DNA of 64,000 nt from Oxalobacteraceae bacterium OTU3CAMAD1. Lineage in GTDB: Bacteria; Pseudomonadota; Gammaproteobacteria; Burkholderiales; Burkholderiaceae_D. The stretch spans positions 3,162,001 through 3,226,000 of the forward strand of contig CP099650.1 in NCBI GenBank assembly GCA_024123915.1, written 5' to 3'. The number at the start of each line of letters is the position of its first letter. The stretch's first letter is position 1. Made by a program: the position numbers and the translations under genes. Under the pieces are notes generated by a model. That model made no database searches and had not been told where the DNA came from. It saw nothing but the letters and a program-made list of their open reading frames with translations. Positions 7,280 through 42,577 of the stretch are shown one piece after another.

Positions 7280-7347
7280 CGATACTCTTTTTGGTATCGA
7301 AAACCCGAAAAAATTGATTGGTTTGTTTTTTGCTCAGCCCCTAAGAT
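7280..7347 (+). promoter_or_regulatory. Arabinose-locus promoter P0 with inverted-repeat operator
   Basis: An inverted repeat CGATAC-N8-GTATCG (7280-7299, extended by T/A on each side) lies 18 bases before TTGGTT (-35, 7318-7323), which is 18 bases before TAAGAT (-10, 7342-7347). The same spacing occurs at 13728 and 26225. The operator centre falls near -64, where LysR activators usually bind. It drives the TonB receptor gene starting at 7419. Confidence 0.8.
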
Positions 7348-7418
7348 GAAATCCGAAAGTTGCACCCCAGCGTGGCAACTCTCCCATAAGACAGATAACA
7401 GACAAACACTGGAGACCT

Positions 7419-10124
7419 ATGAACTACCCAGCATCCGGGACTTGCGAGTCCCAGGCGAAGCATCGCCTCGTCCTCAAATCCAGCGTTGCAGTACTGGCCG
7501 CGGCCGGCCTTCTGAGCGCCTTCCCTGTTTTGGCACAAGATACATCGGCCGCTCCAGCTGTCACCGCGCCCGCCGCCGCTGAAACCCCGGCTCCCGCAGC
7601 CGCCGACACCACGTCCGCCCCAGCAGCCGTCGTCACCGTGACCGGCGTGCGCCGCGCCGCGCAGACCGCGCAGAAGATCAAGCAGGATTCGGACAACGTC
7701 ATCGATTCGATCGTCGCCGACGACATCGGCAAATTCCCCGACACGAACGTGGCGCAAACCCTGGCCCGCGTCAGCGGCATCCAGGTGCGCCGCAACGGCG
7801 GCGAGGCCGATACCGTGCTAATTCGCGGCTTGCCAGGCATCGCCACCTTGATTAACGGCCGTGAGATGTTCACCACCACCGGCCGCTTTATCAAGCTGGC
7901 CGACATCCCTTCGACCATGCTGCAGCGCGCCGACGTCTACAAGTCGCAGAGTGCCGACCAGGTGGAGGGTGGCATCGCCGGTATCATCGACGTGCGCACC
8001 AACCGTCCGTTCGACTTCAAGGAATTCACCGCCAGCGCGCAGGTCGGCGCCAAGAACAAGGACAAGGCCAAGGCCACCGATCCTGAATTGTCCGGCATGG
8101 TGTCGAACCGCTGGAAAACCGGCATCGGCGAAGTGGGTGCCTTGTTCGGCGTGTCGTCGATCAAGGACCGCTTCCAGGAGGAGCGCGCGTTCCAGACCTT
8201 CCCGATCGATAAAAGCTTTGCCGCGCCCAACCTGACCGGTCCCGATCTGGTCGGCCTGCAGGGCGTGCACGGCCAGCGCAAGCGCCAGGCCGCGAACTTC
8301 GCGCTGCAGTGGAAGCCGAGCGCCGATCTGGAAGTGTATGCCGAGGGCCTGCATTCGGTGTTGAAAAACACCGAGGAGACCGATTTCTTCGTCGGCCTGC
8401 CATGGGCCACGTCGCCGGATCAGATCAGTGTCACCAAGATCCCCGGCACCAACCAGACCGACACCATCACGTCGACCAACGCGTTCACCATCCTGTCGAC
8501 GCAGGGCCGCGAGAATACCAGCACCGCGTCGCAGTACGCGGTTGGCGCCAACTGGCGCATTTCGCCGGGCCTGCGCGCGACCACCGAGCTGGCGACCACG
8601 CGCAGCAAATTCGACTGGGTCAATCCTATCCTGGATACCACTTTCAATGCCGACAACGTGTTCGTCAAGACCAACGTCAACGGCGGCGCGTTCGTGCAGT
8701 ATCAGAGCCCGGCCCTGAACGATCCAAGCAAGATCTTCCTGTCGCAGTTCTTCGACCGCTATGGCAAGGATCGCGGCAAGTCGACCGACTGGCGCGGCGA
8801 CGTGACCTACTCGCCAGAAGCCGACGGCTTCTTCAAGGAGTTCGGCGCCGGCCTGCGCCTGAACGAGCGCACCGCCAACTCGATCAAGTCGTTCGAGGGT
8901 AGCGTGCCGACTCCGGCCGGCATCGCCATGTCCAGCATTCCGGGCCTGTCGTGCAGCACCACGGAGTTTTCCGAGAATTACGGCACGCCGAAGTGGTCCA
9001 CGCCTTGCGCCGGATATTTGATCGACAACGCCTCGGCGATTCGCGCCGCCGCCACCGGCAACGCCGCCGCCAGGGCGCTCGATCCCGCATCCTTCTTCTC
9101 CAACAAGGAGAAGAACTACGCCTTCTACGGCAAAGCGAAGGTCGGCTTTGACCTGGGCCAGTTCCCGGTCGATGGCGTGATCGGCGTGCGTGTGACCAAA
9201 ACCGACTCGGATATCCAGGCCAACGACAGCGTCGACGGCGTCTTGGCGCCAACCACCAAGGACTCGTCCAATACCGAAGTGCTGCCAAGCGCGAATTTCA
9301 AGCTGGCGTTGCGCAAGGACTTGCTGGCGCGGTTCGCCTACGCGAAAACGATGACGCGTCCGGACTTCGGCCAACTCAATCCAGCCACCGCGTACATTAA
9401 ACCGAACGGCACCACCAACGTGGCGACGGCGAGCGGCGGCAATTCGGACTTGAAGCCGTTCACCGCGCAGAACTTCGATACCTCGCTCGAGTGGTACTTC
9501 GCGCCGACCGGTTCCCTCAGCGGCACCGTGTTCCGTCATAACTTCGACGGCTACATCGTGAACCGTGTGGTATCGGAGACCTTCCAGGGCATTCCATACA
9601 ATACCACCCGGCCGTTCAACACGGACAAGGGCCACCTGCAGGGCGTCGAGCTGGCGTACCAGCAGTTCTATGATGGCTTGCCCGGCTGGTTGAGCGGCTT
9701 CGGCTTGCAGGCCAACGTGACCTATAGTGAAGGCGGCGTGACCGCTTCGGACAACAAGGACATCGAAGGCAAGCCCTTTGCCGGCATGTCGCGCCTGTCG
9801 TACAACATCGTGGCGCTGTACGAGAAAGAGGGCTGGTCGGCGCGCCTGGCGTACAACTGGCGTTCGAAGTTCGTCGACACCTACGCGGAGACGCCGGACA
9901 GGAACAACAAGAAGCTGGCGCCTATGGATTTGATCGTCAAGCCGATGTCGTCGCTCGATGGTTCCCTGAGCTACAAGGTTAGCGATCATGTTACTGTCAA
10001 CCTGACCGGCACCAATCTGCTGAATTTCAAGTTCCAGGACTACTGGTCGGATTCGAAGATCTTCCCACGCGACACGCGCCGCTATGACCGCACGGTCGGC
10101 CTGTCGATGAACCTGAAGTATTAA
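7419..10124 (+). CDS. TonB-dependent outer membrane receptor, probable arabino-oligosaccharide uptake
   Basis: A 901-residue outer membrane receptor of the Caulobacter-type TonB family. It has an extended signal peptide (cleavage likely near residue 39, VLA|Q), an Ala/Pro-rich linker to about residue 70, and a TonB-box-like stretch VVTVTGVRR. The plug domain has DNVIDSIVADDIGKFPD, VLIRGLPG and an EGGIAGIIDVRT motif. A 22-strand-type barrel ends in an aromatic residue (NLKY). No SusD partner is present. ATG 7419 is preceded by GGAGA. It is the first gene after promoter P0 and is followed by a symporter, a GH43 enzyme and an aldose epimerase, so arabinan-derived oligosaccharides are the likely cargo. 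Substrate is inferred from context only. Confidence 0.92.
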   Translation: MNYPASGTCESQAKHRLVLKSSVAVLAAAGLLSAFPVLAQDTSAAPAVTAPAAAETPAPAAADTTSAPAAVVTVTGVRRAAQTAQKIKQDSDNVIDSIVADDIGKFPDTNVAQTLARVSGIQVRRNGGEADTVLIRGLPGIATLINGREMFTTTGRFIKLADIPSTMLQRADVYKSQSADQVEGGIAGIIDVRTNRPFDFKEFTASAQVGAKNKDKAKATDPELSGMVSNRWKTGIGEVGALFGVSSIKDRFQEERAFQTFPIDKSFAAPNLTGPDLVGLQGVHGQRKRQAANFALQWKPSADLEVYAEGLHSVLKNTEETDFFVGLPWATSPDQISVTKIPGTNQTDTITSTNAFTILSTQGRENTSTASQYAVGANWRISPGLRATTELATTRSKFDWVNPILDTTFNADNVFVKTNVNGGAFVQYQSPALNDPSKIFLSQFFDRYGKDRGKSTDWRGDVTYSPEADGFFKEFGAGLRLNERTANSIKSFEGSVPTPAGIAMSSIPGLSCSTTEFSENYGTPKWSTPCAGYLIDNASAIRAAATGNAAARALDPASFFSNKEKNYAFYGKAKVGFDLGQFPVDGVIGVRVTKTDSDIQANDSVDGVLAPTTKDSSNTEVLPSANFKLALRKDLLARFAYAKTMTRPDFGQLNPATAYIKPNGTTNVATASGGNSDLKPFTAQNFDTSLEWYFAPTGSLSGTVFRHNFDGYIVNRVVSETFQGIPYNTTRPFNTDKGHLQGVELAYQQFYDGLPGWLSGFGLQANVTYSEGGVTASDNKDIEGKPFAGMSRLSYNIVALYEKEGWSARLAYNWRSKFVDTYAETPDRNNKKLAPMDLIVKPMSSLDGSLSYKVSDHVTVNLTGTNLLNFKFQDYWSDSKIFPRDTRRYDRTVGLSMNLKY

Positions 10125-10159
10125 TATTTCAACTATTGATGTCACCACGTCGTTAAAAA

Positions 10160-10191
10160 CTATCCCGCTTCTGCGGGATAGCTGCATTTTT
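10160..10191 (+). terminator. Stem-loop after the TonB receptor gene
   Basis: Perfect 9-bp arms (CTATCCCGC / GCGGGATAG) around loop TTCT at 10160-10181, followed by CTGC and a run of five T. It is a partial terminator or mRNA-processing hairpin separating the receptor gene from the symporter gene 13 bases downstream. Confidence 0.6.
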
Positions 10192-10203
10192 AAGAGGTCG
10201 TAA

Positions 10204-11559
10204 ATGTCGAATCAAAAATTATCGCTGGTGGAAAAAGTGGGTTTTGGCGCCGGCGACATGGCGCTGAATGTGGTGATTTCGTCGATGATGTTGATCATCA
10301 CGTTCTTCTACACCGATATCTACGGACTGAAAACCTCCGACCTGGCCTTGCTGTTCCTGGTCGTAAAATTCGTCGGCGCCATCGCCGACCTGGTCGTGGG
10401 CCAGCTCACCGACCGCTATGCCAGCGCGCGCATGGGCCGCTATCGCCCCTGGCTGCTGCTGCTCGCCGTCCCTTACGGCATCAGCGTGTTCTTCGTCTTC
10501 ACCACGCCCGACTGGGGCTATGACGCGAAACTGATCTGGGCCTATTCGACCTACATCATCATGACCATCATGACGTCCGGCGTCGGCGTGGCCTACATCT
10601 CGCTGCCGAGCAGCCTGACCAACGATCCGCAGGAACGCCTGTCGGCCAACGGCTACCGCCTGTTCTTCGCCAAGATCGGCGCCTTCATGGTGACAGTAGT
10701 GGTGCCGGTGCTGTCCGAGCGCTGGGGCGGCGGCAACGCGGCCACCGGCTACCAGGCGGCGATGGCGGTGATGGCGGCGATGGGCGTGGCGCTGTTCCTG
10801 TTCTGCTTCTTCACCACCAAGGAGCGCGTCATCCACGTGGTGCAGCGCCAGTCGCTGTGGGCCCAACTCAAGGTGCTGCTGCAAAACGACCAGTGGCTGA
10901 TCCTGTGCGGCGTCTGCGTGACCGGCACCATCGGCTACGTGCTGCGCGCCACGGCGGCGATCTACTATGTCAAATATTATCTGGGCGGCGACACCGCCAC
11001 CGTGGCCACCTTCCTGTCGATCGGCGTGGTCGCCGCGATCCTGTCGATGGTCGCCTCGACCTGGATCACCAAGTTCTATTGCAAGGTCAAGCTGTTCCGC
11101 TGGAGCCAGATCGCCGTCGGCGTGATCAGCGCCGCGATCTACTTCTTCGTCAAGCCGGGCGACATCATGCTGGCGTTTGTGCTGTACTTCGTGCTGTCGT
11201 TCGTGGTGGACTTGCACGCGCCGGTGTTCTGGTCGGCCATCGCAGAGACCATCGACTACGGCCAGGTCAAGACCGGTAAGCGCGTCTCCGGCTTCGCCTT
11301 CGGCGGCATCTCGGTGTGCCAGAAGGCCGGCATGGGCGTGGCCGGCGCGCTGGCCGGCGGCCTGCTGACGTACTTCCAGTATCAGCCGAACCACGAGCAG
11401 ACCGCTTTCGCGCTGCACGGCATCGTGTTGATGATGACCCTGATCCCCGGTTTCTTCCATACCTTGATGGGACTTTTGATGTTCAAATACCGGGTGACCG
11501 ACGAGTATTACACGGAAGTGAAGAAGCAAATGGGAGCCGATTCTTATGTGGCAGTCTAA
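10204..11559 (+). CDS. GPH-family sugar:cation symporter (MFS)
   Basis: A 451-residue inner membrane protein with about twelve hydrophobic segments. Family features are GFGAGDMALN near the N terminus, FYTDIYGL, an AIADLVVGQLTDR loop with RMGRYRPWL, and SAIAETIDYGQVKTGKR in the second half. These match the glycoside-pentoside-hexuronide symporters (MelB/XylP/XynT type). It lies between the TonB receptor and a GH43 enzyme with no export signal, so it probably imports arabinosides or short arabino-oligosaccharides for cytoplasmic cleavage. GGTCGTAA precedes the start. Substrate and coupling ion are inferred. Confidence 0.92.
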   Translation: MSNQKLSLVEKVGFGAGDMALNVVISSMMLIITFFYTDIYGLKTSDLALLFLVVKFVGAIADLVVGQLTDRYASARMGRYRPWLLLLAVPYGISVFFVFTTPDWGYDAKLIWAYSTYIIMTIMTSGVGVAYISLPSSLTNDPQERLSANGYRLFFAKIGAFMVTVVVPVLSERWGGGNAATGYQAAMAVMAAMGVALFLFCFFTTKERVIHVVQRQSLWAQLKVLLQNDQWLILCGVCVTGTIGYVLRATAAIYYVKYYLGGDTATVATFLSIGVVAAILSMVASTWITKFYCKVKLFRWSQIAVGVISAAIYFFVKPGDIMLAFVLYFVLSFVVDLHAPVFWSAIAETIDYGQVKTGKRVSGFAFGGISVCQKAGMGVAGALAGGLLTYFQYQPNHEQTAFALHGIVLMMTLIPGFFHTLMGLLMFKYRVTDEYYTEVKKQMGADSYVAV

Positions 11560-11578
11560 TTTTTTGGAAAACGAAGCA

Positions 11579-12532
11579 ATGGAAAGCAAAGACATACTGC
11601 AGCCGCTGATCGAACAGCGCGCCGATCCTTTTATCATCCGCCACAGCGACGGCTACTACTACTTCACCGCCTCTGTGCCGCAGTACGACCGCATTGAGCT
11701 GCGCCGGGCGAAAACCATCGCCGGCCTGGTCGACGCCGAGAAGGTCGATGTCTGGTTCAAGCCGGAGACCGGCATGTACAGCGAACTGGTTTGGGCGCCG
11801 GAGATCCATTTCAACCAGGGCGCCTGGTACGTCTACTTCGCCGCCGCGCCGAGCCGCGAGATCAAGCACAAGCTTTTCCAGCACCGCATGTACGCGATCC
11901 GCAACCAGAACGCCAATCCGCTGCAAGGCGAGTGGGAGTTCATGGGCCAGATCGACACCGGCATCGATACCTTCTGCCTGGACGCCACCACCTTCACCCA
12001 CAACGGCCAGCTGTACTACCTGTGGGCGCAGAAGGACGTCGCCATCGAGGGCAACTCCAACCTGTACATCGCGCCGATGAAGACGCCGTGGCAGCTGGGC
12101 GGCCCGCCGGTCATGCTGAGCAAGCCGGAATTCGATTGGGAGATCCGTGGTTTCTGGGTCAACGAGGGTCCGTCGGTGCTGAAAAAGAACGGCAAGATCT
12201 TCATCAGCTATTCGGCCAGCGCCACCGACGAGAACTACGCCATGGGCCTGCTGTGGGCGGACGAAAACGCCGACCTGCTGGACCCGGCCTCGTGGACCAA
12301 ACTGAAGGAACCGGTGCTGCAAACCTGCTTCGAGCACGGCGTCTATGGTCCTGGACATAACAGTTTCACCATTGGCGATGATGGCGAAACTGTCATGTTG
12401 GTTTATCATGCACGCACCTATACCGAGATTATCGGCGACCCGCTGTGGAATCCGGACCGTCACACCTATGTCAAGCCGCTCAAGTGGGACGGGCAGGGCA
12501 TGCCGGTCTTCGGAAAGCCGTCGATCGCTTAA
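11579..12532 (+). CDS. GH43 glycoside hydrolase, cytoplasmic, probable arabinosidase
   Basis: A 317-residue five-bladed beta-propeller glycosidase of family GH43. Candidate catalytic residues are Asp16 in ADPFII (base), Asp135 in FCLDATTF (pKa modulator) and Glu196 in WVNEGPSVL (acid). There is no signal peptide, so it should act in the cytoplasm on sugars imported by the preceding symporter. ATG 11579 is chosen because GGAAAA lies 9 bases upstream and it starts just after the symporter stop; an upstream in-frame ATG at 11546 would overlap the symporter. GH43 members are mostly arabinofuranosidases, arabinanases or xylosidases, and the locus favours an exo-acting arabinofuranosidase. Confidence 0.88.
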   Translation: MESKDILQPLIEQRADPFIIRHSDGYYYFTASVPQYDRIELRRAKTIAGLVDAEKVDVWFKPETGMYSELVWAPEIHFNQGAWYVYFAAAPSREIKHKLFQHRMYAIRNQNANPLQGEWEFMGQIDTGIDTFCLDATTFTHNGQLYYLWAQKDVAIEGNSNLYIAPMKTPWQLGGPPVMLSKPEFDWEIRGFWVNEGPSVLKKNGKIFISYSASATDENYAMGLLWADENADLLDPASWTKLKEPVLQTCFEHGVYGPGHNSFTIGDDGETVMLVYHARTYTEIIGDPLWNPDRHTYVKPLKWDGQGMPVFGKPSIA

Positions 12533-12635
12533 CCCAGTTCGGCCGGTCGCTGCGCGACCGCCAAAGAATAATCGCGGCGGCCGGTGGGTTCATTCCCCCC
12601 GGCCGCCGCCCCATTTGAAAGCTGAAAGTCATATC

Positions 12636-13697
12636 ATGCAAGCTTCGATCACTGAATCCCCGTTCGGCCAGATGGCCGACGGCCGCGACGTCACCCGCTA
12701 TACGCTCACCAACGCCAACGGCATGATCGTCAAGATCATCAACCTGGGCGGCGCCATCACCGAAATCCGTGTGCCCGACCGCACTGGCACCCTGGCCGAT
12801 GTCAATTGCGGCTACGACGACGTCGCCGCCTACATGGGCGAATCCCATTATTTCGGCGCGCTGATCGGCCGTTACGGCAACCGCATCGCCAACGCCCGCT
12901 TCACACTGGACGGCGAGACCTTTGCGCTGGACGTCAACAACGGGGCCAATCACCTGCACGGCGGGATCGACGGCTTCCACCGCCGCCTTTGGACCGGCGA
13001 AACCTTCACCACCCCGAATTCGGCAGGCCTGATACTGAGTTACGTCAGCGCGGACGGTGAGCAGGGCTATCCCGGTAATCTGGAAGTCACCGCCATCTAT
13101 GAGCTGCGCAACGATAACGAATTGCGTATCGCTTTCCACGCCATCAGCGACAAGGCGACGCCGGTCAACCTGACCAACCACGCCTATTTCAACCTGGCCG
13201 GCAAGGGCGATATCCTGGGCCACGAGCTGACCATCGTGGCCGACGCCTATACGCCGATCGACGATGTGCAGATCCCGCTGGGCGATCTGCCGCCGGTCGA
13301 GGGCACGCCATTCGACTTCCGTACGCCCCATGCGATCGGCGAGCGTATCGACCAGGATGATGCGCAATTGCGCAACGGCTTTGGCTATGACCACAACTTC
13401 GTACTGAAAAAATCGAAGCCGGGCGCGCTGGAGATGGCGGCCCGTGTGCGCGATCCGGTCTCCGGCCGGGTGCTGGAGGTATGGAGCCAGGAGCCGGGCA
13501 TCCAGTTCTACAGCGGAAATTTCATGAATGACAAGATGACCGGAAAAGGGCAGATCTACAGCTATCGCAGCGCCTTCTGCCTCGAACCGCAGCATTTCCC
13601 GGATTCCCCGAACCGGCCGGACTTCCCGTCGACGATCCTGCACCCAGGCCAGGAATACTCGACGGTGATGGCTTACCGCTTCAGTATCGACGCCTAA
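12636..13697 (+). CDS. galM: Aldose 1-epimerase (mutarotase)
   Basis: A 353-residue enzyme interconverting alpha and beta anomers of aldoses. Motifs include NLGGAITEIRVPD, YGNRIANARF, NHLHGGIDGFHRRLW (catalytic His region), NLTNHAYFNL (second His) and a C-terminal LEPQHFPDSPN with the conserved Glu. There is no signal peptide, so it is cytoplasmic. In this locus it would prepare L-arabinose anomers for the dehydrogenase encoded at 18243. ATG 12636 follows GAAAG and starts the recognisable fold; the frame continues upstream into the GH43 gene but without family similarity. It is the last gene of the P0 unit. Confidence 0.93.
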   Translation: MQASITESPFGQMADGRDVTRYTLTNANGMIVKIINLGGAITEIRVPDRTGTLADVNCGYDDVAAYMGESHYFGALIGRYGNRIANARFTLDGETFALDVNNGANHLHGGIDGFHRRLWTGETFTTPNSAGLILSYVSADGEQGYPGNLEVTAIYELRNDNELRIAFHAISDKATPVNLTNHAYFNLAGKGDILGHELTIVADAYTPIDDVQIPLGDLPPVEGTPFDFRTPHAIGERIDQDDAQLRNGFGYDHNFVLKKSKPGALEMAARVRDPVSGRVLEVWSQEPGIQFYSGNFMNDKMTGKGQIYSYRSAFCLEPQHFPDSPNRPDFPSTILHPGQEYSTVMAYRFSIDA

Positions 13698-13727: not shown

Positions 13728-13795
13728 CGATACCAGTTTTGATATCGAAGTTGATTAATAATTTATTGGAAAGATATCTCAGTCCATCTTAGTAT
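13728..13795 (+). promoter_or_regulatory. Arabinose-locus promoter P1 with inverted-repeat operator
   Basis: Operator CGATAC-N8-ATATCG at 13728-13747, then 18 bases, TTGGAA (-35, 13766-13771), 18 bases, TAGTAT (-10, 13790-13795). Spacing is identical to P0 and P2. It reads into the pentonate dehydratase operon at 13859. Confidence 0.82.
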
Positions 13796-13858: not shown

Positions 13859-15604
13859 ATGTCGGACAATGACAACAAGAAGGTAAAGCTGCGCTCCGCC
13901 GAATGGTTCGGCTCCCAAGACAAAAACGGTTTCATGTACCGCAGCTGGATGAAAAATCAGGGCATTCCTGATCACGAATTCCAGGGCAAACCGATCATCG
14001 GCATCTGCAACACGTGGTCTGAACTGACCCCTTGCAACGCCCACTTCCGCAAACTGGCGGAACACGTCAAACGTGGCATCCTCGAAGCCGGCGGCTTCCC
14101 GGTCGAATTCCCAGTCTTCTCCAACGGCGAATCGAATCTCCGTCCAACCGCCATGTTGACCCGTAACCTGGCCAGCATGGACGTTGAAGAATCCATCCGC
14201 GGCAATCCAATGGACGGCGTCGTACTGCTGGTCGGCTGCGACAAGACCACCCCTGCGCTGTTGATGGGCGCCGCCTCGGTCGACATCCCGACCATCGTCG
14301 TCACCGGCGGCCCTATGCTGAACGGTAAGCTGAACGGCAAGAACATCGGCTCGGGCACCGCCGTCTGGCAGTTGCACGAGCAGGTCAAGGCCGGCGAACT
14401 CAGTATGCACGACTTCCTCGCGGCCGAAGCTGGCCACTCCCGCTCCGCCGGCACCTGCAACACCATGGGCACCGCCTCGACGATGGCCTGCATGGCCGAA
14501 TCGCTGGGTACCTCGCTGCCGCACAACGCCGCCATTCCGGCCGTCGACGCGCGCCGCTACGTGCTGGCCCACATGTCGGGCATGCGCATCGTCGACATGG
14601 TCAAGGAAGACTTGAAGCTGTCGAAGATCCTGACCAAGGAGAATTTCGAGAACGCGATCCGCGTCAACGCCGCCATCGGCGGTTCGACCAACGCCGTGAT
14701 CCACCTGAAAGCTATCGCCGGCCGCATCGGCGTCGACCTGGAACTGGAAGACTGGACCCGTGTCGGTCGCGGCATGCCGACCATCGTCGATCTGCTGCCG
14801 TCGGGCCGCTTCCTGATGGAAGAGTTCTACTATGCGGGCGGCCTGCCGGCCGTGATCCGCCGCATGGGCGAGGGCAAGCTGCTGCCCAACCCGGACGCGC
14901 TGACCGTCAACGGCAAGACCATCTGGGAAAACTGCCAGGAAGCGCCGATCTACGACGACGAAGTGATTCGTCCGCTGGATAAGCCGCTGCTGAAGGATGG
15001 CGGCATCTGCATCCTGCGCGGCAACCTGGCGCCGCGCGGCGCCGTGCTGAAACCGTCGGCGGCGACGCCGGAACTGATGCAGCATCGCGGCCAGGCCGTG
15101 GTGTTCGAGGACTTTGAACACTACAAGAGCCGCATCATCGATCCGGATCTGGTGGTCGATGCGAACTCGGTGCTGGTGATGAAGAACTGCGGCCCGAAAG
15201 GTTATCCGGGCATGGCCGAAGTAGGGAATATGGGCCTGCCGCCTAAGCTGCTGGCGGCTGGCGTCAAGGACATGGTCCGCATCTCCGACGCCCGCATGAG
15301 CGGAACCGCCTACGGTACCGTCGTGCTGCACGTTGCGCCGGAAGCGATGGCCGGCGGCCCGCTGGGGATCGTCAAGGACGGCGACTGGATCACGCTGGAT
15401 TGCGCAGGCGGTTTGCTGAACCTGGAAATCTCGGACGCCGAAATGGCCGAACGCCAGGCCGCCCGCGTGCCTGGCAGTGCGCCGGGTCCGAAGACCGGCT
15501 ACCAGCAGCTCTACATCGAACACGTACTGCAAGCGGATGAAGGTTGCGACTTCGATTTCCTGGTCGGGAATCGTGGTTCGGCTGTTCCTCGCCACTCGCA
15601 CTAA
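13859..15604 (+). CDS. L-arabinonate (pentonate) dehydratase, IlvD/Edd family
   Basis: A 581-residue iron-sulfur dehydratase. Cys59, Cys127 (LVGCDKT) and Cys200 (AGTCNTMG) are placed to hold a [2Fe-2S] cluster, as in characterised L-arabinonate dehydratases. Ser481 sits in the RMSGTAYG loop where the family has its catalytic serine. The expected reaction is L-arabinonate to L-2-keto-3-deoxyarabonate. ATG 13859 is preceded by TGAGGAG and is the first gene after promoter P1. The next gene begins 17 bases after the stop. D-xylonate or other pentonates remain possible substrates; L-arabinonate is favoured by the surrounding arabinosidases. Confidence 0.93.
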   Translation: MSDNDNKKVKLRSAEWFGSQDKNGFMYRSWMKNQGIPDHEFQGKPIIGICNTWSELTPCNAHFRKLAEHVKRGILEAGGFPVEFPVFSNGESNLRPTAMLTRNLASMDVEESIRGNPMDGVVLLVGCDKTTPALLMGAASVDIPTIVVTGGPMLNGKLNGKNIGSGTAVWQLHEQVKAGELSMHDFLAAEAGHSRSAGTCNTMGTASTMACMAESLGTSLPHNAAIPAVDARRYVLAHMSGMRIVDMVKEDLKLSKILTKENFENAIRVNAAIGGSTNAVIHLKAIAGRIGVDLELEDWTRVGRGMPTIVDLLPSGRFLMEEFYYAGGLPAVIRRMGEGKLLPNPDALTVNGKTIWENCQEAPIYDDEVIRPLDKPLLKDGGICILRGNLAPRGAVLKPSAATPELMQHRGQAVVFEDFEHYKSRIIDPDLVVDANSVLVMKNCGPKGYPGMAEVGNMGLPPKLLAAGVKDMVRISDARMSGTAYGTVVLHVAPEAMAGGPLGIVKDGDWITLDCAGGLLNLEISDAEMAERQAARVPGSAPGPKTGYQQLYIEHVLQADEGCDFDFLVGNRGSAVPRHSH

Positions 15605-15621
15605 TAAAATCCGGAGATACC

Positions 15622-18179: not shown

Positions 18180-18196
18180 TTGTGGTGGCTGTACCG

Positions 18197-18214: not shown

Positions 18215-18242
18215 TTTCGTCTATAAAAACAACGGAGACTGT

Positions 18243-19010
18243 ATGACCCAATTGGCTAAATTCGCCAGCCTGCGCGGCAAGCGCGTGTTCATCACCGGCG
18301 GCGGCACCGGCATCGGCGAGGCGATGGTGATTTCCTTCGCCGAGCAGGGCGCCAAGGTCGCCTTCGTCGACATCGCCCGCGACGCCAGCCTGGAGCTGGT
18401 TCGCCGCGTCAAGGAAGCCGGCTACCCCGAGCCGGAGTTCCGCGTTTGCGATATCACCGACATTCCCGCCTTGCAGTCCACGATGGCGGAAATGGCCGGC
18501 ATCATCGGCTCCTTCGACATCCTCGTCAACAACGCCGCCAACGACCAGCGCCACGCCACCCAGGAAGTCACCGTCGATTATTGGAACGAGCGTATCGCCA
18601 TCAACCAGCGTCCGATGTTCTTCACCTGCCAGGCGGTCTTCGAGGGCATGAAGGAAAAGGGCGCGGGCTCGATCATCAACGTCGGTTCGATCTCGTGGCA
18701 GGTCAAAAACGCCGGCTATCCAGTGTACGCGACCTCCAAGGCGGCCACCCATGGCCTGACCCGTGGCCTGGCGCGCGAATTCGGCGCCCACGGCATCCGC
18801 GTCAACACCGTCACGCCGGGCTGGGTGATGACCCAGCGTCAGATCGACCTGTGGCTGGACGAAGCGGGCGAGCAGGATATCAAACGTAACCAGTGCATGC
18901 CTACGAAGCTGATGCCGCAGCATATCGCGTCGATGATTTTGTTCCTGGCCGCCGACGACGGCGCCATGTGCACCGCCCAGGAGTTCATCGTCGATGGAGG
19001 ATGGGTATAA
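18243..19010 (+). CDS. SDR-family sugar 1-dehydrogenase (probable L-arabinose/D-xylose dehydrogenase)
   Basis: A 255-residue short-chain dehydrogenase. The cofactor motif TGGGTGIG is at 18-25, NNAAN at 95-99, and the catalytic set is Ser148, Tyr161 and Lys165 (YATSK). Asp42 after the second strand suggests NAD+ preference. It resembles the Caulobacter-type xylose dehydrogenases, which oxidise pentoses to lactones. Here it would supply the first step, L-arabinose to L-arabinono-lactone. ATG 18243 follows ACGGAGA. It ends the metabolic gene block of the P1 unit; a REP-like palindrome follows its stop. An alternative role on a 2-keto-3-deoxypentonate cannot be excluded. Confidence 0.87.
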   Translation: MTQLAKFASLRGKRVFITGGGTGIGEAMVISFAEQGAKVAFVDIARDASLELVRRVKEAGYPEPEFRVCDITDIPALQSTMAEMAGIIGSFDILVNNAANDQRHATQEVTVDYWNERIAINQRPMFFTCQAVFEGMKEKGAGSIINVGSISWQVKNAGYPVYATSKAATHGLTRGLAREFGAHGIRVNTVTPGWVMTQRQIDLWLDEAGEQDIKRNQCMPTKLMPQHIASMILFLAADDGAMCTAQEFIVDGGWV

Positions 19011-19019
19011 GAGTTGAAA

Positions 19020-19053
19020 CACGTAGGGCGGATTAGCGCAGCGTAATCCGCCA
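19020..19053. repeat. REP-like palindrome, single short-type copy
   Basis: CACGTAGGGCGGATTA followed by GCGCAGCG and TAATCCGCCAT: an imperfect palindrome with GGCGGATTA / TAATCCGCC arms. The same sequence recurs at six other places in the window. Here it lies just after the SDR stop codon. Confidence 0.85.
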
Positions 19054-19116
19054 TACGCCGCCAATACAGCAACTAGCAAAGTAGCAGAAGCACAAACACA
19101 AGCAACACCGTTCGCC

Positions 19117-19150
19117 GCCCCGGAGACACCGCCCTTAGAGGCGGCGGGGC
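19117..19150 (+). other. Compound GC-rich stem-loop upstream of GH97
   Basis: Outer arms GCCCCG / CGGGGC enclose inner arms CCGCC / GGCGG with loop CTTAGA. It lies 28 bases before the GH97 start, so it could be a 5' mRNA structure or a processing point. No T run follows. Confidence 0.5.
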
Positions 19151-19178
19151 TAAATAACCCTAAAAAATTGGTGAGAAC

Positions 19179-21113
19179 ATGGTGAATAAATTTATCTCCG
19201 CAGTCGCGGTGGGCGCCACAGCCGCGTCGACCGCTTTCGCGGCTTCCCCCGGCGCGCTGACAAGTCCCGACCGTCATATCAGCGTCCAGCTGAACGAATC
19301 GCCCGGCAAACCCCTGACCTACACCGTCTCCCGCGACGGCAAGCCGGTGCTGCTGGCCTCCGAACTGGGGCTGCAACTGCAAGGCGCCGATCTGGCCGGC
19401 GCGCTGACGATCGCCGCGAGCTCCAAGGTCAGCACCGTCACCGACAAGTACCAGATGGCCACGGGTAAGAAGCGTGACATCATCTACAGCGCCAACGAAC
19501 AAACCTTCTCCGTGCAGAACGCGCAGAAGCAGAAGATGGAAATCGTCTTCCGGGTGTCGAACGACGGCGTCGCGTTCCGCTACATCGTCGCCGAGCCGTC
19601 GCTGCCACGCAAAAAACTGATCCAGGAGCGCACCACGTTCGCGTTGCCGACGTCGGCCAAGGCCTGGTTGCAGCCGATCGCCGTCGCGCAGACCGGCTGG
19701 GGGCGGACCAATCCGTCCTACGAAGAACACTATCAGATGGACATCCCGGTCGGCACGGTTTCGCCGTCGCCGGCCGGCTGGGTATTTCCGGCGCTGTTCA
19801 AGGCCGGCGACAACTGGCTGGCCATCTCGGAAGCGGGCATGGACGGCAGCTTCCAGGGCTCGCGCCTGGCGCCGGATTCCAAGGGCGGAAAATACAGCAT
19901 CGGCAATCCGATGAAGGAAGAGGTCTATCCCGATCGCGGCCTGATGGCCGATGTCGAAGGCACACTGACCTCGCCATGGCGCCTGATGGCGCTTGGCTCA
20001 CTGTCGACGGTGGTTGGCTCGACGCTGGGCACCGACCTGGCCGCGCCGGCGATCGCCTTCGACAAGCAGCTGGTCAAGCCGGGCCACGCCTCCTGGAGCT
20101 GGGCGCTGCTGAAGGATGACGCCACCGTCTACGACGTGCAGAAGAAGTTCATCGACTACGCCGCCGACATGAAGTGGGACTACACCTTGGTGGACGCCGA
20201 CTGGGACCGCAAGATCGGCTACGAGAAGATGAAGGAACTGGCCGACTACGCGGCGACCAAGAACGTCGGCGTGCTGGTTTGGTACAACTCGTCCGGCCCA
20301 TGGAACTCGACCGAGTACTCGCCGAAGAGCAAGCTGCTGACGCACGAGCAGCGCGTGGCCGAGTTCAAGCGCCTGCGCCAGATGGGCATCAAGGGCGTGA
20401 AGATCGACTTCTTCAACGGCGACGCGCAATCGATGATGGCCTACTACGTCGATATGCTGAACGACGCGGCCGCCGCCGGCCTGCTGGTGAACTTCCACGG
20501 CTCGACCCTGCCGCGGGGCTGGACCCGCACCTGGCCCAACCTGATGACGATGGAGGCGGTGCGCGGCATGGAGTTCACCACCTTCGAACAGGCCGACGAG
20601 GACAAGATGCCGACCCACGCGGCGATGATGCCGTTCGCTCGCAACCTGTTCGACCCGATGGATTTCACGCCGATGGTGTTCGGCGACATACCCAAGATCA
20701 AGCGCACCAGCACCAACGGTTTTGAACTCGCCACGTCGGTGTTGTACGTCTCCGGCATCCAGCACTTCGCCGAGGTGCCGGAGGGGATGGCGACCGTGCC
20801 GGCCTACGTCAAGAGCTTCCTGCAGGAGCTGCCGCGCAGCTGGGACGACAGCCGCCTGGTCGACGGTTATCCCGGCAAATACGCGGTGGTCGCGCGCCGC
20901 GCAGGCGACACCTGGTATATCGCCGGTATCAACGCCACCGACTCCGATAAGGCGCTGACGCTGGACTTGTCCTTCGCCGGTGGCAAGCAGGGCACGATCA
21001 TCGCCGACGGTGAAGGCGAACGGAGTTTTAGCCAGCGCAGCATCGCTGCAGGCAAAAAAGCAGCAGTAACCATCAAGCCGCATGGCGGCTTTGTGATAAC
21101 AATAAAACAGTAA
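19179..21113 (+). CDS. GH97 glycoside hydrolase, retaining type; candidate beta-L-arabinopyranosidase/alpha-galactosidase
   Basis: A 644-residue secreted enzyme. A signal peptide (residues 1-21, cleavage near AFA|A) is followed by the GH97 N-terminal beta-sandwich, a TIM barrel from about 270 to 540 and a C-terminal beta domain. Asp410 in GVKIDFFNGD is placed like the nucleophile of retaining GH97 enzymes; inverting SusB-type members use glutamates instead. Glu459 in TMEAVRGME is a candidate acid/base. Characterised retaining GH97 enzymes include alpha-galactosidases and a beta-L-arabinopyranosidase, and the latter suits this locus. It sits 168 bases after the SDR gene and 18 bases before the GH51 gene. 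Substrate is inferred. Confidence 0.88.
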   Translation: MVNKFISAVAVGATAASTAFAASPGALTSPDRHISVQLNESPGKPLTYTVSRDGKPVLLASELGLQLQGADLAGALTIAASSKVSTVTDKYQMATGKKRDIIYSANEQTFSVQNAQKQKMEIVFRVSNDGVAFRYIVAEPSLPRKKLIQERTTFALPTSAKAWLQPIAVAQTGWGRTNPSYEEHYQMDIPVGTVSPSPAGWVFPALFKAGDNWLAISEAGMDGSFQGSRLAPDSKGGKYSIGNPMKEEVYPDRGLMADVEGTLTSPWRLMALGSLSTVVGSTLGTDLAAPAIAFDKQLVKPGHASWSWALLKDDATVYDVQKKFIDYAADMKWDYTLVDADWDRKIGYEKMKELADYAATKNVGVLVWYNSSGPWNSTEYSPKSKLLTHEQRVAEFKRLRQMGIKGVKIDFFNGDAQSMMAYYVDMLNDAAAAGLLVNFHGSTLPRGWTRTWPNLMTMEAVRGMEFTTFEQADEDKMPTHAAMMPFARNLFDPMDFTPMVFGDIPKIKRTSTNGFELATSVLYVSGIQHFAEVPEGMATVPAYVKSFLQELPRSWDDSRLVDGYPGKYAVVARRAGDTWYIAGINATDSDKALTLDLSFAGGKQGTIIADGEGERSFSQRSIAAGKKAAVTIKPHGGFVITIKQ

Positions 21114-21131
21114 ATGAGGAGATTGGCAAAC

Positions 21132-22679
21132 ATGAATCACATCAAACTTGGTGTCCTTACCCTGTGCATGATCGCTTCGGGTGCCGCCTTCGCGGCGCCG
21201 GTTGGCGTGACGATCGACACGACCAAGCCTGGTCCTGTCATCAACAAAAACATCTACGGCCAGTTCGCCGAGCACCTGGGTACCGGCATCTACGAAGGTA
21301 TCTGGGTCGGTCCGAAGTCGAAGATCCCGAACGTCAATGGCTGGCGCAAGGACGTTGTCGGCGCCCTGAAGGCCATGCACGTGCCGCTGGTGCGTTGGCC
21401 GGGCGGCTGCTTCGCCGACGAATACCACTGGCGTGACGGTATCGGCGCGCGCGAGAAGCGTCCGGTCAAGGTCAACACCAACTGGGGCGGCGTGGAGGAA
21501 AACAACGCCGTCGGCACGCACGAATTCTTCGAACTGGCCGAGCAGCTGGGCGCCGAGACCTACGTCAACGGCAACCTGGGCACCGGCAGCGCGCAAGAGA
21601 TGTCGGAATGGGTCGAGTACATGACCTCCGACAGCAAATCGACCCTGGCGGAACTGCGCCGCAAAAATGGCCGCGACAAGCCATTCAAGGTCGATTATTT
21701 CGCCATCGGTAACGAGGCCTGGGGCTGCGGCGGTAACATGTCGCCGCAACACTACGCGAACCTGTACAAGAACGTCGAGACCTTCCTGCGCGCGCCACCG
21801 CAGTATCGTCCGAAGATGATCGCCAGCGGCGGCAACGACCATGACCTGACCTGGACCGAAACCCTGAGCAAAGAGCTCAAGAAGCAAACCTACGGCATCA
21901 GCTTCCACTACTACACCATCCCGACCGGCCAGTGGGAAGTGAAGGGCATGGCGACCGGCTTCAAGGAAGACCAGTGGTTCTCGACCCTGTCCAACACGAT
22001 CAAGATGGATGGCTTCATCAAGAACAATACGGCGGTGATGGACAAGTACGACCCTGAGAAGAAGTTGGGCTTCCTGGTCGACGAGTGGGGCACCTGGTAC
22101 GACGTCGAGAAGGGCACCAACGCCGGCTTCCTGTTCCAGCAAAACACGCTGCGCGACGCGGTGGTGGCTGCGCTGAACTTCAACATCTTCCACGACCACG
22201 CCGACCGCGTGCGCATGACGAACATCGCGCAGATGGTCAACGTGCTGCAGGCGATGATCATCACCGACAAGGACAAGATGGTGCTGACGCCGACGTACCA
22301 CGCGTTCCAGATGTATGTGCCGTTCCAGGACGCGACCTCGCTGCCGTTGAAGTTGACGAACAATCCGCAGTATTCGTACAACGGCAGCAGCATTCCGGAA
22401 ATCAGCGCATCGGCGGCCCGCGCCAAGGACGGCAAGCTGTATCTGGCCCTGGTCAACACCAACCCGACCAAGGAAGCGGAAGTCGCCGTGGACGTGCCGG
22501 GTCAGGCCATCAAATCGGTCAACGGCCGTGTGCTGACGTCCGCCGCGATGGACACGCATAACACCTTCCAGTCGCCGGAAGCGATCAAACCGGCCCCGTT
22601 CAGCGCCACCGCCGGCGCCGACGGCAAGCTGACGGTCAAGATCCCGGCCAAGGCCGTTATCGTGGTCGCCGTGGAGTAA
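21132..22679 (+). CDS. GH51 alpha-L-arabinofuranosidase, secreted
   Basis: A 515-residue retaining arabinofuranosidase that releases terminal L-arabinofuranose. A signal peptide covers residues 1-21 (cleavage AFA|A). Glu195 in the motif AIGNEAWG is the acid/base and Glu318 in LVDEWGTWYD the nucleophile; VRWPGGCFADEYHW is also typical. Most bacterial GH51 enzymes are cytoplasmic, so the export signal is notable. ATG 21132 is chosen because GAGGAG lies 10 bases before it and it starts the signal peptide; an ATG at 21114 lies upstream of that ribosome site. It is followed by a strong hairpin and then the GH43 lipoprotein gene. Confidence 0.94.
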   Translation: MNHIKLGVLTLCMIASGAAFAAPVGVTIDTTKPGPVINKNIYGQFAEHLGTGIYEGIWVGPKSKIPNVNGWRKDVVGALKAMHVPLVRWPGGCFADEYHWRDGIGAREKRPVKVNTNWGGVEENNAVGTHEFFELAEQLGAETYVNGNLGTGSAQEMSEWVEYMTSDSKSTLAELRRKNGRDKPFKVDYFAIGNEAWGCGGNMSPQHYANLYKNVETFLRAPPQYRPKMIASGGNDHDLTWTETLSKELKKQTYGISFHYYTIPTGQWEVKGMATGFKEDQWFSTLSNTIKMDGFIKNNTAVMDKYDPEKKLGFLVDEWGTWYDVEKGTNAGFLFQQNTLRDAVVAALNFNIFHDHADRVRMTNIAQMVNVLQAMIITDKDKMVLTPTYHAFQMYVPFQDATSLPLKLTNNPQYSYNGSSIPEISASAARAKDGKLYLALVNTNPTKEAEVAVDVPGQAIKSVNGRVLTSAAMDTHNTFQSPEAIKPAPFSATAGADGKLTVKIPAKAVIVVAVE

Positions 22680-22691
22680 GCCAGTAGCCCC

Positions 22692-22720
22692 GCAAGGCCA
22701 TGCCGCCGGCATGGCCTTGC
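22692..22720 (+). other. Perfect 13-bp stem-loop between GH51 and GH43 genes
   Basis: Arms GCAAGGCCATGCC / GGCATGGCCTTGC with a 3-base loop GCC. No T run follows, and the next start codon is 21 bases downstream. It may be an mRNA stabilising or processing element within the operon rather than a terminator. Confidence 0.6.
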
Positions 22721-22741
22721 ACAGTGAATCCGAGGTTGTAA

Positions 22742-23767
22742 ATGAAGTATATTTTTTCGACGATGGCTTTGGTGTTGGGCGTGGCCGGCCTGTCGGCCTG
22801 CACCGCCAAGGAAGTCAGCGTGCACGATCCTGTGATGGCCAAGGAAGGCGATACCTATTACGTCTTCAGTACGGGACCGGGGATCACTTTCTACAGTTCG
22901 ACCAATATGAAGGACTGGAAGCCGGAAGGCCGCGTGTTCAAGGACCAGCCGTCATGGGCCAAACGCGCCGCGCCGACTTTCGACGGCCATATCTGGGCGC
23001 CGGATGTGCAGTTCCATAACGGTAAATATTATTTGTATTATTCCGTCTCCGGATTCGGTAAGAACACATCGGGAATAGGCGTCACGGTCAACAAGACGCT
23101 CAATCCCCGCTCGCCGGACTACCGGTGGGAAGACAAGGGCATGGTGTTGCAGTCGGTGCCGCTGCGCGACGACTGGAACGCCATCGATTCGAACATCATC
23201 GAAGATGAAAAGGGCGTGGCCTGGATGTCGTTCGGCTCCTTCTGGAGCGGACTGAAACTGGTCAAGCTGAACGACGCCTGGACCGGGTTGGCCGAGCCGC
23301 AGGAGTGGCACGCGATCGCCAGCCGGACCGCCAACGTCGATGCGCCGGCCGGCGCGGATGCCGGTCCGGGCGAGATCGAGGCGCCGTTCATCTTCAAGAA
23401 GAATGGCTACTACTATCTGTTCGCATCGTTCGGCCTGTGCTGCCGCAAGGGCGACAGCACCTACAACGTCGTCGTCGGCCGTTCGACATCGGTGACCGGG
23501 CCTTATGTGGACACAAAAGGCGTGGATATGATGAAGGGCGGCGGTTCGCTGCTGATTGCCGGCGACAAGGACTGGAAGGGCCTTGGCCACAACAGCGCTT
23601 ATACGATGGACGGCAAGGACTACCTGGTGCTGCACGCCTACGAGACCGCCGACAACTACCTGCAAAAGCTGAAAATCATGGAAATGAAATGGGATGCGAA
23701 TGGGTGGCCGACGGTTGACCAGGCCGACTTGAACAAGTACCGCAGCACGCAGCTGCCCCTCAAATAA
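22742..23767 (+). CDS. GH43 arabinan endo-1,5-alpha-L-arabinosidase-like lipoprotein
   Basis: A 341-residue GH43 enzyme with a lipoprotein signal: hydrophobic residues 2-16 and lipobox LSAC with Cys20. Candidate catalytic residues are Asp29 (VHDPVM), Asp149 (AIDSNII) and Glu213 (IEAPFIF). The layout HDP, IDSN and EAPF is that of the endo-arabinanase branch (AbnA/Arb43 type). It probably sits on the outer membrane and cuts the alpha-1,5 backbone of arabinan into pieces for the TonB receptor. Its stop overlaps the GH127 start by one base. Endo versus exo action cannot be decided from sequence reading alone. Confidence 0.9.
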   Translation: MKYIFSTMALVLGVAGLSACTAKEVSVHDPVMAKEGDTYYVFSTGPGITFYSSTNMKDWKPEGRVFKDQPSWAKRAAPTFDGHIWAPDVQFHNGKYYLYYSVSGFGKNTSGIGVTVNKTLNPRSPDYRWEDKGMVLQSVPLRDDWNAIDSNIIEDEKGVAWMSFGSFWSGLKLVKLNDAWTGLAEPQEWHAIASRTANVDAPAGADAGPGEIEAPFIFKKNGYYYLFASFGLCCRKGDSTYNVVVGRSTSVTGPYVDTKGVDMMKGGGSLLIAGDKDWKGLGHNSAYTMDGKDYLVLHAYETADNYLQKLKIMEMKWDANGWPTVDQADLNKYRSTQLPLK

Positions 23768-26202
23768 TGGCAGCGGCCACCCACAAGCCGGCACGCCGGC
23801 GCACCTTGCGCTACGCGGCCAGCGCGATGGCTGCGGCGGCGGTTCCGCCGATGGCCGGCGCCGCGACGCGTGCAGCCGCCACCGCACCGGTAGCCGACAA
23901 GGCTCCGCTGCGCCTGTTCCCACTGTCGGCGGTGCGCCTCACGGCAAGCCCCTTCCTGGAAGCCCAGCAAACGGACCTGCGCTACATCATGGCGCTGAAC
24001 CCGGACCGCCTGCTCTCGCCGTTCCTGCGCGAAGCCGGCCTGACGCCGAAAGAGGCCACCTACGGCAACTGGGAATCGACAGGGCTGGATGGCCACATGG
24101 GCGGCCACTATCTGACCGCGCTGTCATTGATGTTCGCCGCCACCGGCGATGAGGAAGTTTTGAAGCGCCTGAATTACTGTGTGGCGGAACTCAAGCGCTG
24201 TCAGGCGAGCAACGGCGACGGCTACATCGGCGGCGTGCCGGGTGGCGAGGCCGCGTGGCGCGATATCGCGCAAGGCAAACTCCAGGCCGACGGTTTCTCC
24301 GTCAACGGCAAATGGGTCCCCTGGTACAACCTGCACAAGCTATACGCCGGCCTGCGCGACGCCTACGTCTACGCCGGCAATCAGGACGCGCGCGCGATGC
24401 TGATCGCGCTATGCGACTGGACGGTGGGACTGATCTCGCACCTGAGCGAAGAACAGATGCAAAACATGCTGCGCTGCGAACATGGCGGCATGAACGAAGT
24501 GCTGGCCGATGTCTCCGAGATGACCGGTCAGAAGAAATACATGGACCTGGCGATCCGCTTCTCGCACCAGGCCATCCTGCGCCCGCTGGAGGATGGCAAG
24601 GACCAGTTGACCGGCCTGCACGCCAACACCCAAATCCCGAAAGTGATTGGCTTCAAGCGCATCGGCGACATCACCGGCCGGCCCGACTGGCAAAAAGCCG
24701 CGCAGTTCTTCTGGCAAACCGTGCACGATCACCGCACCGTCGCCATCGGCGGCAATAGCGTCAAGGAGCACTTCCACGATCAGAATGACTTCTCGTCCAT
24801 GATCGAGGAGGTCGAAGGCCCCGAGACCTGCAATACCTACAATATGCTCAAGCTCACCGGGTTGCTGTTCCTCGGCGACGCCAAGGGCAGCTACGCCGAC
24901 TACTACGAGCGCGCGTTGTACAACCACATCCTGGGATCTCAGCGTCCGCACAGCGGCGGCTTTGTCTACTTCACGCCGATGCGGCCGAACCACTACCGCG
25001 TTTATTCGCAGCCGCAGCAGGGCATGTGGTGCTGCGTGGGCTCTGGCCTGGAGAGCCACGCCAAGTACGGCGAGTTCATTTACGCGCATCGGGGCGACAA
25101 CCTGTATGTCAACCTGTTCATCCCTTCGACCTTGAACTGGCGCGAGCAGGGCGTATCCCTCCGCCAGTCCAACCGCTTCCCGGATGAAGGCAGCAGCACC
25201 ATCACCGTCAAGGGCAACAAGACCTTCACCTTGAAGATCCGTTATCCGGAATGGGTGGCGCCGGGGGCGCTGCGCGTCTCCGTCAATGGCAAGCAGGTCG
25301 CGGCCAGCATCGGCGCCGACCGCTATGTCAGCGTCCGCCGCCAATGGCGCGACGGCGACAGGGTCGATATCGCCCTGCCGATGAAAACCCGGCTCGAACA
25401 GATGCCGGACAAGTCCAATTACTATGCCGTGCTGCACGGCCCCGTGGTGCTGGCGGCGAAGACCAATCCCTTCCCGGACGAGAAACTGGATTTCCTGGCC
25501 GACGACTCGCGTATGGGCCATATCGCCTCGGGGCCGGTCAGCCCGTTGCAGGCTTCCCCTGTGCTGGTCGACGACAGCCCGGCGTTCGAAGGCCGTTTCA
25601 AACCGGTGTCGGGCAGGCCGCTGACGTTTGTCGCCCCTGGACTGGTGGAGGGCAAGGATGGCAAGCAAGCCACCACCTTTGTGCCGTTCTTCCGGGTGCA
25701 CGAATCGCGCTACATGGTTTATTGGCCGTATTCGACCGCGGCGGATCTGGCGGCCACGCGCGCCAAAGCCGCCGAGGACGAGAAGGCGCGGCTTGAATTG
25801 GACGCGCGCACCATCGACCAGGTGGCGCCGGGCGAACAGCAGCCGGAGTCGGACCACTTCTTCAAGGCCGAAGGCGGGGAATCCGGTCTGGCCAAGGGAC
25901 GTCACTGGCGGCATGCGACCAACTGGTTCAGCTACGACCTGACCGACAAGAAGTCCGAAGCGCGCGCCTTGCGCCTGACATATTCGAAAGGGGATGCCGG
26001 CCGCAGGTTCGATATCCTGATCAACGGGCAGTTGCTGGCCGAGGTGAAGCTGGACGCCACGGCGCCGCAGGAGCTCTATGCCGTGGATTACCCGATTCCG
26101 CCGGCGCTGGTCGCGGCGGCGGGTGGAAAACTGGTGGTGAAATTTGTGGCCCGCAGCGGCTCCGTGGCCGGTGGGCTGTATGGCCTGCGCCTGCTGCGAT
26201 GA
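23767..26202 (+). CDS. GH127 beta-L-arabinofuranosidase (DUF1680), exported
   Basis: An 811-residue enzyme of the family typified by HypBA1, which releases beta-L-arabinofuranose using a zinc-bound cysteine nucleophile. The metal set is visible as Glu353-x-Cys355 in PETCNTYNM and Cys422-Cys423 in MWCCVGSG; Glu334 is a possible acid/base. The N terminus ARRRTLRYAASAMAAAAV looks like a Tat-type signal, which would fit export of a folded zinc enzyme. A C-terminal beta domain (about 690-811) follows, rich in substrate-binding-type strands. Beta-linked arabinofuranose occurs in plant extensins and pectin side chains. It is the last gene of the P1 unit, one base overlapping the GH43 lipoprotein gene. 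Confidence 0.9.
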   Translation: MAAATHKPARRRTLRYAASAMAAAAVPPMAGAATRAAATAPVADKAPLRLFPLSAVRLTASPFLEAQQTDLRYIMALNPDRLLSPFLREAGLTPKEATYGNWESTGLDGHMGGHYLTALSLMFAATGDEEVLKRLNYCVAELKRCQASNGDGYIGGVPGGEAAWRDIAQGKLQADGFSVNGKWVPWYNLHKLYAGLRDAYVYAGNQDARAMLIALCDWTVGLISHLSEEQMQNMLRCEHGGMNEVLADVSEMTGQKKYMDLAIRFSHQAILRPLEDGKDQLTGLHANTQIPKVIGFKRIGDITGRPDWQKAAQFFWQTVHDHRTVAIGGNSVKEHFHDQNDFSSMIEEVEGPETCNTYNMLKLTGLLFLGDAKGSYADYYERALYNHILGSQRPHSGGFVYFTPMRPNHYRVYSQPQQGMWCCVGSGLESHAKYGEFIYAHRGDNLYVNLFIPSTLNWREQGVSLRQSNRFPDEGSSTITVKGNKTFTLKIRYPEWVAPGALRVSVNGKQVAASIGADRYVSVRRQWRDGDRVDIALPMKTRLEQMPDKSNYYAVLHGPVVLAAKTNPFPDEKLDFLADDSRMGHIASGPVSPLQASPVLVDDSPAFEGRFKPVSGRPLTFVAPGLVEGKDGKQATTFVPFFRVHESRYMVYWPYSTAADLAATRAKAAEDEKARLELDARTIDQVAPGEQQPESDHFFKAEGGESGLAKGRHWRHATNWFSYDLTDKKSEARALRLTYSKGDAGRRFDILINGQLLAEVKLDATAPQELYAVDYPIPPALVAAAGGKLVVKFVARSGSVAGGLYGLRLLR

Positions 26203-26224
26203 GCAATTACCTGGCACTGCAAAC

Positions 26225-26292
26225 CGATATCGAAACCGATATCGTACTTGACCAAAATATCATTGGATAGATATTTGTGTTTCTCATAGTAT
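26225..26292 (+). promoter_or_regulatory. Arabinose-locus promoter P2 with inverted-repeat operator
   Basis: Operator CGATAT-N8-ATATCG at 26225-26244, then 18 bases, TTGGAT (-35, 26263-26268), 18 bases, TAGTAT (-10, 26287-26292). It shares exact spacing with P0 and P1 and drives the ABC importer genes from 26335. Confidence 0.83.
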
Positions 26293-42576: not shown

Positions 42577-42577
42577 C

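Follow-up and report, generated by a model that had tools for sequence, protein, structure and literature searches.

A LysR-type regulator and a promoter element of fixed geometry predicted to govern arabinan and L-arabinose use in Oxalobacteraceae

We propose that three promoters, here called A, B and C, in a 64,000-nucleotide stretch of the genome of Oxalobacteraceae bacterium OTU3CAMAD1 (the window; the genome is one contig of 7.48 Mb) are activator-dependent promoters of a single arabinan and L-arabinose regulon, in all likelihood switched on by the LysR-type regulator encoded at 32015. The regulon would provide a proposed regulator and a signature by which arabinan and arabinose use can be searched for in Duganella, Massilia, Janthinobacterium and their relatives; the promoter signature also lets unannotated receptors and glycosidases be linked to arabinan. 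To our knowledge, few LysR proteins govern sugar use. No LysR arabinose regulon in this family was found in the open-licence PMC literature, among the matches listed, and the regulon, which sequence comparison supports well, appears to be new and of ordinary LysR type.

The sequence-only reading had described an inverted repeat CGATAY-N8-RTATCG followed at 18 bp by TTGGWW and, after another 18 bp, by TAAGAT or TAGTAT, at 7280, 13728 and 26225, and every base is as it claimed. The composite unit is stricter than this first description, consisting of the palindrome, an A-tract, ATTGG and TANNNT, all at fixed distances. Its parts in the window are as follows.

7280-7299, plus strand: operator A, CGATAC-N8-GTATCG
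7309-7323, plus strand: promoter A, A-tract, ATTGG and -35-like TTGGTT (TTGGTT at 7318)
7342-7347, plus strand: promoter A, -10-like TAAGAT
13728-13747, plus strand: operator B, CGATAC-N8-ATATCG
13757-13771, plus strand: promoter B, A/T tract, ATTGG and -35-like TTGGAA (TTGGAA at 13766)
13790-13795, plus strand: promoter B, -10-like TAGTAT
26225-26244, plus strand: operator C, CGATAT-N8-ATATCG
26254-26268, plus strand: promoter C, A-tract, ATTGG and -35-like TTGGAT (TTGGAT at 26263)
26287-26292, plus strand: promoter C, -10-like TAGTAT

The window has no exact palindromes besides operators A, B and C, and the whole genome has seven, these three included. The full arrangement, observed three times, did not occur in any of 200 simulated sequences with the window's trinucleotide make-up, and the palindrome, counted on both strands, was observed six times against a simulated mean of 0.05 and a largest value of 2 in 200 sequences. 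When up to two mismatches are allowed, the window holds 15 palindromes against a shuffled mean of 5.1, so that the palindrome by itself carries less weight than the arrangement as a whole. A near match at 31988 (two mismatches), which ends 8 bp before the LysR start, and the one-mismatch palindromes at 13112 and 45746, both inside ORFs, fail the composite pattern and were treated as chance. If transcription begins about 7 nt after the conserved -10-like hexamer, as we infer, the operator centre falls at about -64, near the -65 usual for LysR recognition dyads. An IS3-family transposase pair on the minus strand (5970-7192) stops 88 bp short of operator A, and an insertion sequence thus seems to stand directly upstream of a regulated promoter.

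The genes behind the three promoters, with the LysR gene that closes the third unit, are these; the extent of unit A rests on ORFs and family matches, with starts taken from the mechanical ORF list.

7419-13697, plus strand: unit A
7419-10124, plus strand: unit A, TonB-dependent receptor
10204-11559, plus strand: unit A, GPH-type sugar:cation symporter
11546-12532, plus strand: unit A, GH43
12345-13697, plus strand: unit A, aldose epimerase
13859-26202, plus strand: unit B, beginning with an arabinonate-dehydratase-like IlvD/Edd enzyme (likely start 13859, after GAGGAG), followed in order by a GguC/AraD1 family protein, an aldehyde dehydrogenase, an SDR sugar dehydrogenase, GH97, an ArfA-like arabinofuranosidase, an AbnA-like GH43 and GH127
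26335-31958, plus strand: unit C, YtfQ-YtfR-YtfT-YjfF (GafABCD-type) ABC transporter and GH43
32015-32962, plus strand: LysR-type regulator of 315 aa, last gene of unit C and proposed activator

Unit B is presumably transcribed as a single message. Its dehydratase scores 829 bits against a cut-off of 882 for the arabinonate dehydratase model, below NCBIfam's own rule, and its SDR sugar dehydrogenase 324 bits against 400; the ArfA-like enzyme and the AbnA-like GH43 are both below cut-off, the GguC/AraD1 family match is above it, and the aldehyde dehydrogenase was identified by Pfam. Among the components of the unit C transporter, YjfF alone exceeds its NCBIfam cut-off, and no lactonase was found among the window proteins scanned. 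Beyond the three units, the ORF directly after the LysR gene (33531-34529) gives weak MarR-like and then GNAT-like matches, and the region 37075-46445 gives NodU-like, heptosyltransferase-like and MsbA-like matches, all of them below cut-off; the latter suggest, as judged by family resemblance, a cluster for the export of a glycan or lipid.

The geometry of the element is held constant across relatives. We searched 31 genomes of the genus with free spacing, allowing 5-11 and 12-22, and obtained 61 matches, 47 of them at exactly 8 and 17; three more, at 10 and 17, represent the identical geometry read from the upstream GAT, and the other 11 are scattered over the remaining 75 spacing combinations. 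Within the resulting set of 50 sites (47 plus the three re-read matches, the window's three included), TANNNT stands at the predicted -10 offset (columns 63-68) in 46, a feature that the search pattern did not use, compared with 0-3 of 50 at 41 other offsets. Outside the pattern, the same sites favour C7/G14, an A-tract at columns 30-34 and T36. A symmetric second dyad (AAATATC-N8-GATATTT) is perfect at site C only; as a general downstream activation site, such a dyad was set aside, since pairing at columns 40.5-41.5 was a weak 0.42-0.43 against a column expectation of 0.37-0.38 over the 50 sites. Mechanical selection of the first ORF behind each of the 50 sites gave Pfam matches to a TonB plug (20), an IlvD/Edd dehydratase (10), a periplasmic sugar-binding protein (9), GH43 (4), GH3 (2) and, once each, GH97, GH95, GH39 and SDR, tallies that sum to 49 and may overlap. 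The expectation that the motif would be enriched before sugar genes in related genomes is thus borne out, with fixed spacing, a fixed -10, and sugar genes and TonB receptors downstream.

The same unit is found when one starts from the regulator. In 62 of 76 named LysR loci (80 in all, four omitted for too little upstream DNA), the full unit precedes the LysR gene on the same strand, in 48 of the 62 at a distance of 5.5-6 kb, which is also the arrangement in the window; controls over the 76 loci gave 0-4 for shifted palindromes, 0-4 for shifted -10s and 3 for the reverse strand. Three of the 14 loci without an upstream unit on the LysR strand have the unit divergently, and a second scan of the 76 loci found no unit at the remaining 11. 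Reading the pattern backwards alters its CG content, and we rely on the spacing shifts instead; the backwards pattern matched none of 294 family genomes and two of the 31 genus genomes (one match each), and in a mismatch-tolerant composite search it gave 34 and 33 matches against 173 and 151 forward.

In this genome, the fixed-spacing pattern finds sites A-C, places at about 1245506 and about 1232650, and one unlikely place at 4164776. Allowing the composite pattern up to two mismatches yields 25 places, which we scored on four features outside the pattern (A/T tract, T36, A38 and -10): eight have all four, two have three and 15 have two or fewer. The two three-feature places are 3674246, which lacks T36, and 4694233, which has TTAG and no -10. 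Seven of these ten places lie outside the window, and together with one three-mismatch place they make a minimum of eight additional imperfect sites, which stand before genes for arabinanases, other glycosidases, TonB receptors and a sugar symporter.

about 1245506: precedes GH43 with a lectin domain
1249150: precedes GH39
3643631: precedes GH43 (the mechanical ORF begins upstream of the site, and a later start is assumed)
3674246: precedes GH31
4612662: precedes a TonB receptor, then GH43-CBM6
4694233: precedes an AbnA-like GH43
5279155: precedes a GluP/FucP-type symporter
about 1232650, with three mismatches: precedes a TonB receptor

This list is a minimum; of the 299 places with three mismatches, five were scored on the extra features, none passing. 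The three units recognised from the sequence are real, and as a count of the regulon they fall short, because the unit recurs elsewhere in the genome. The predicted further matches before sugar genes exist as arabinan-type sites outside the window, and the suggestion of a small regulon that can be searched for genome-wide has given positive results both here and in relatives.

The protein encoded at 32015 has an N-terminal HTH_1 domain (PF00126, 4.8e-19) and a C-terminal substrate-binding domain (PF03466, 2e-33), and its gene follows the GH43 of unit C after a gap of 57 bp in which no terminator-like match is listed. It had been called the single LysR gene, which holds inside the window, where it is the only HTH_1 match, and fails for the genome, where it is one of 108. 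By this protein, the closest named relatives are Duganella species, with 100% identity in Duganella sp. CF517, in a comparison that may omit the window's own record; the next-best-scoring LysR in this genome is 42% identical, and in several genomes there is an additional LysR, about 59-64% identical. A protein search returned no informative name. Searched by sequence, the PDB held nothing similar at E 1e-20; relaxing the threshold to 1e-5 brought in distant LysR structures.

Its candidacy as the regulator is supported by co-occurrence with the site. Across the same 294 family genomes, we compared the presence of the exact pattern ATAYN8RTATCGN17ATTGG (106 genomes) with that of the LysR protein at E up to 1e-90 (122 genomes): the site is present in 92 of the 122 genomes with the LysR and in 14 of the 172 without (Fisher p 5e-34). 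The association holds within genera (Mantel-Haenszel p 8e-12 over 173 genomes of genera having any LysR), for instance with the site in 10/11 genomes with the LysR against 1/6 without in g12, 10/12 against 0/14 in g19 and 3/3 against 2/22 in g33; the genomes are related, and these p-values overstate independence, even within genera. Thirty of the 122 LysR-bearing genomes have no exact match; in genera entirely without the LysR, 10 of 121 genomes match, and the two such places that were read (L157 and L158) lack the -10. The mismatch between LysR and site presence probably reflects in part the strictness of the pattern and chance matches in coding DNA. Outside the family, a search of the order with a slightly stricter pattern gave matches in five of 290 genomes.

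In 22 genomes, counted among 31 places chosen by hand, site and LysR gene are divergent, with 27-117 bp between the site and the LysR start, and this arrangement is found in all 17 g27 genomes having both site and LysR. The gene faced by the divergent site at one g27 and one g29 locus encodes a porin distantly resembling PorB (scores of 62 and 68 bits, the cut-off being 480), and at the g27 locus L239, arabinonate-dehydratase-like and SDR genes stand on the other side of the LysR gene. Co-occurrence, its persistence within genera and this divergent adjacency together point, by comparison of genomes, to the LysR at 32015 as very probably the activator of the predicted sites. Separately, the g29 genomes L160, L161 and L163 carry a CAATAY variant site with a -10 (1499, minus strand), far from the LysR gene or on another contig, and in L160 the gene behind it weakly matches an exo-beta-glucosaminidase. 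In L241 (G022), a 64% identical LysR has a site 65 bp downstream on the same strand.

Other explanations have to be weighed against LysR-dependent activation. Another LysR-type or a non-LysR protein might bind the sites, the gene at 32015 being a mere neighbour with correlated inheritance. Linked genes do co-occur regardless of function, the exact pattern occurs in those 14 LysR-negative genomes, the variant site of the three g29 genomes lies far from the LysR, and with 108 HTH_1 matches in the genome another LysR could be responsible for the scattered sites. We nevertheless regard this explanation as improbable, given that site and LysR co-vary within genera, that the divergent adjacency recurs in 22 genomes with the two scanned downstream genes porin-like and seemingly not of the same operon, that the window holds no second HTH_1 gene and that the genome's next-scoring LysR is so much less similar. 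The three copies, which lie inside 19 kb, might be recent promoter duplications, alike through copying and not through a common regulator; this we judge extremely unlikely, as the spacers and flanks of A, B and C differ and the unit recurs at scattered loci. Moreover, by eye, the flank upstream of operator A is unrelated DNA in five of the six relatives shown, the sixth, L233, having a short GACCCC...CGGTTTT stretch in common with it.

It is also conceivable that the LysR is mainly a repressor here, or acts only at its own divergent promoter, with a global factor providing activation. In keeping with this, a simple sigma-70 scan at promoter C does not pick out the hexamers we propose and reports two other weak ones close by. 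A repressor would, however, have no need of a fixed phase to the -10, and a centre at about -64 at a fixed distance from a poor -35 fits activation, so that we consider such a role very unlikely. Taken together, the presumed position of the centre, the half-sites and spacing shared with PcaQ (see below) and the poor -35 make an activator the natural reading.

In our model of activation, drawn from the anatomy of the sites and general LysR biology, a LysR tetramer would bind the palindrome GATAYC-N6-GRTATC as a recognition site centred at about -64 of the inferred start, while its other two heads would contact the A-tract and ATTGG over the -35 region. With inducer bound, most likely L-arabinose, L-arabinonate or 2-keto-3-deoxy-L-arabinonate, the heads would shift and RNA polymerase would be recruited to the promoter, whose -35 (TTGGWW) is poor and whose spacer is 18 bp long. 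The operon products, with functions predicted by family, would comprise an outer-membrane receptor, a symporter, arabinan- and arabinose-releasing glycosidases and an ABC importer of the arabinofuranose type, together with the enzymes of an oxidative route via arabinonate dehydratase toward 2-oxoglutarate. The LysR gene closes unit C, and positive feedback is therefore expected, since activation would raise the level of the LysR itself. Elsewhere in this genome, the LysR probably acts at a minimum of eight scattered promoters as well. A more specific idea, which we offer tentatively as a possibility against the balance of our expectation, is that A-tract-N-T-N-ATTGG serves the LysR activation heads as a sequence-specific contact, taking the place of the -35, and is not a weak sigma-70 -35, the 68-bp element being a portable activator promoter of a single geometry that spreads one arabinan regulon over scattered loci of a bacterial family. 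The presence of ATTGG in 65 of 65 promoters at the 76 LysR loci, in related genomes and with sites found without columns 38-42, favours such a contact, because a drifting -35 would wander towards TTGACA; the relatedness of the genomes and the TTAG of some other candidate sites (4694233 in this genome and the second sites of L076 and L086) count against it.

Several known systems resemble parts of the predicted regulon. GbpR of Agrobacterium is a LysR-type regulator of the chvE sugar-uptake locus, and by this description offers a parallel in LysR-type control of sugar uptake. In Herbaspirillum, a non-phosphorylated arabinose route has been described, in an account whose available part does not mention LysR (PMC3093359). 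For the LysR-family AraR of Halomonas, divergent from its target operon, the predicted targets are genes of oxidative L-arabinose use and an ABC transporter for arabinose (PMC5507952); we set it beside the 32015 LysR by description, not by motif, and arabinan-degrading genes and TonB receptors are not named in the available description of its regulon. The unit C transporter is of the same type as GafABCD (YtfQRT-YjfF) of Shewanella sp. ANA-3, which belongs to a predicted AraR regulon and whose YtfQ relative GafA binds L-arabinofuranose, so that predicted arabinose control is common to both; the Shewanella regulator is named AraR in a main text that, as available, is without the word LysR (PMC10191376).

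In site geometry there is a likeness to PcaQ, a LysR-type activator of protocatechuate genes in Sinorhizobium meliloti with the site ATA-N10-TAT (PMC5002191). The spacing at our sites, fixed by the free-spacing search, is T-N12-A and departs from the classical LysR T-N11-A box; the one extra spacer base relative to ATAC-N7-GTAT, pointed out in the sequence-only reading, is confirmed and has its precedent in the PcaQ site, which departs likewise, and T-N12-A thus does not exclude a LysR protein. The PcaQ model TIGR02424 is also the best-scoring named NCBIfam model for the 32015 LysR, at 191.3 bits, below the equivalog cut-off of 303.8 bits. The two differ in that the genes here are for sugar and those of PcaQ for aromatics, and in that the sites here add an outer G/C pair and the A-tract and ATTGG part. 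The ATAY-N8-RTAT of sites A-C nevertheless has the half-sites and spacing of the PcaQ site, and such spacing in a predicted sugar regulator ties site geometry to protein subgroup.
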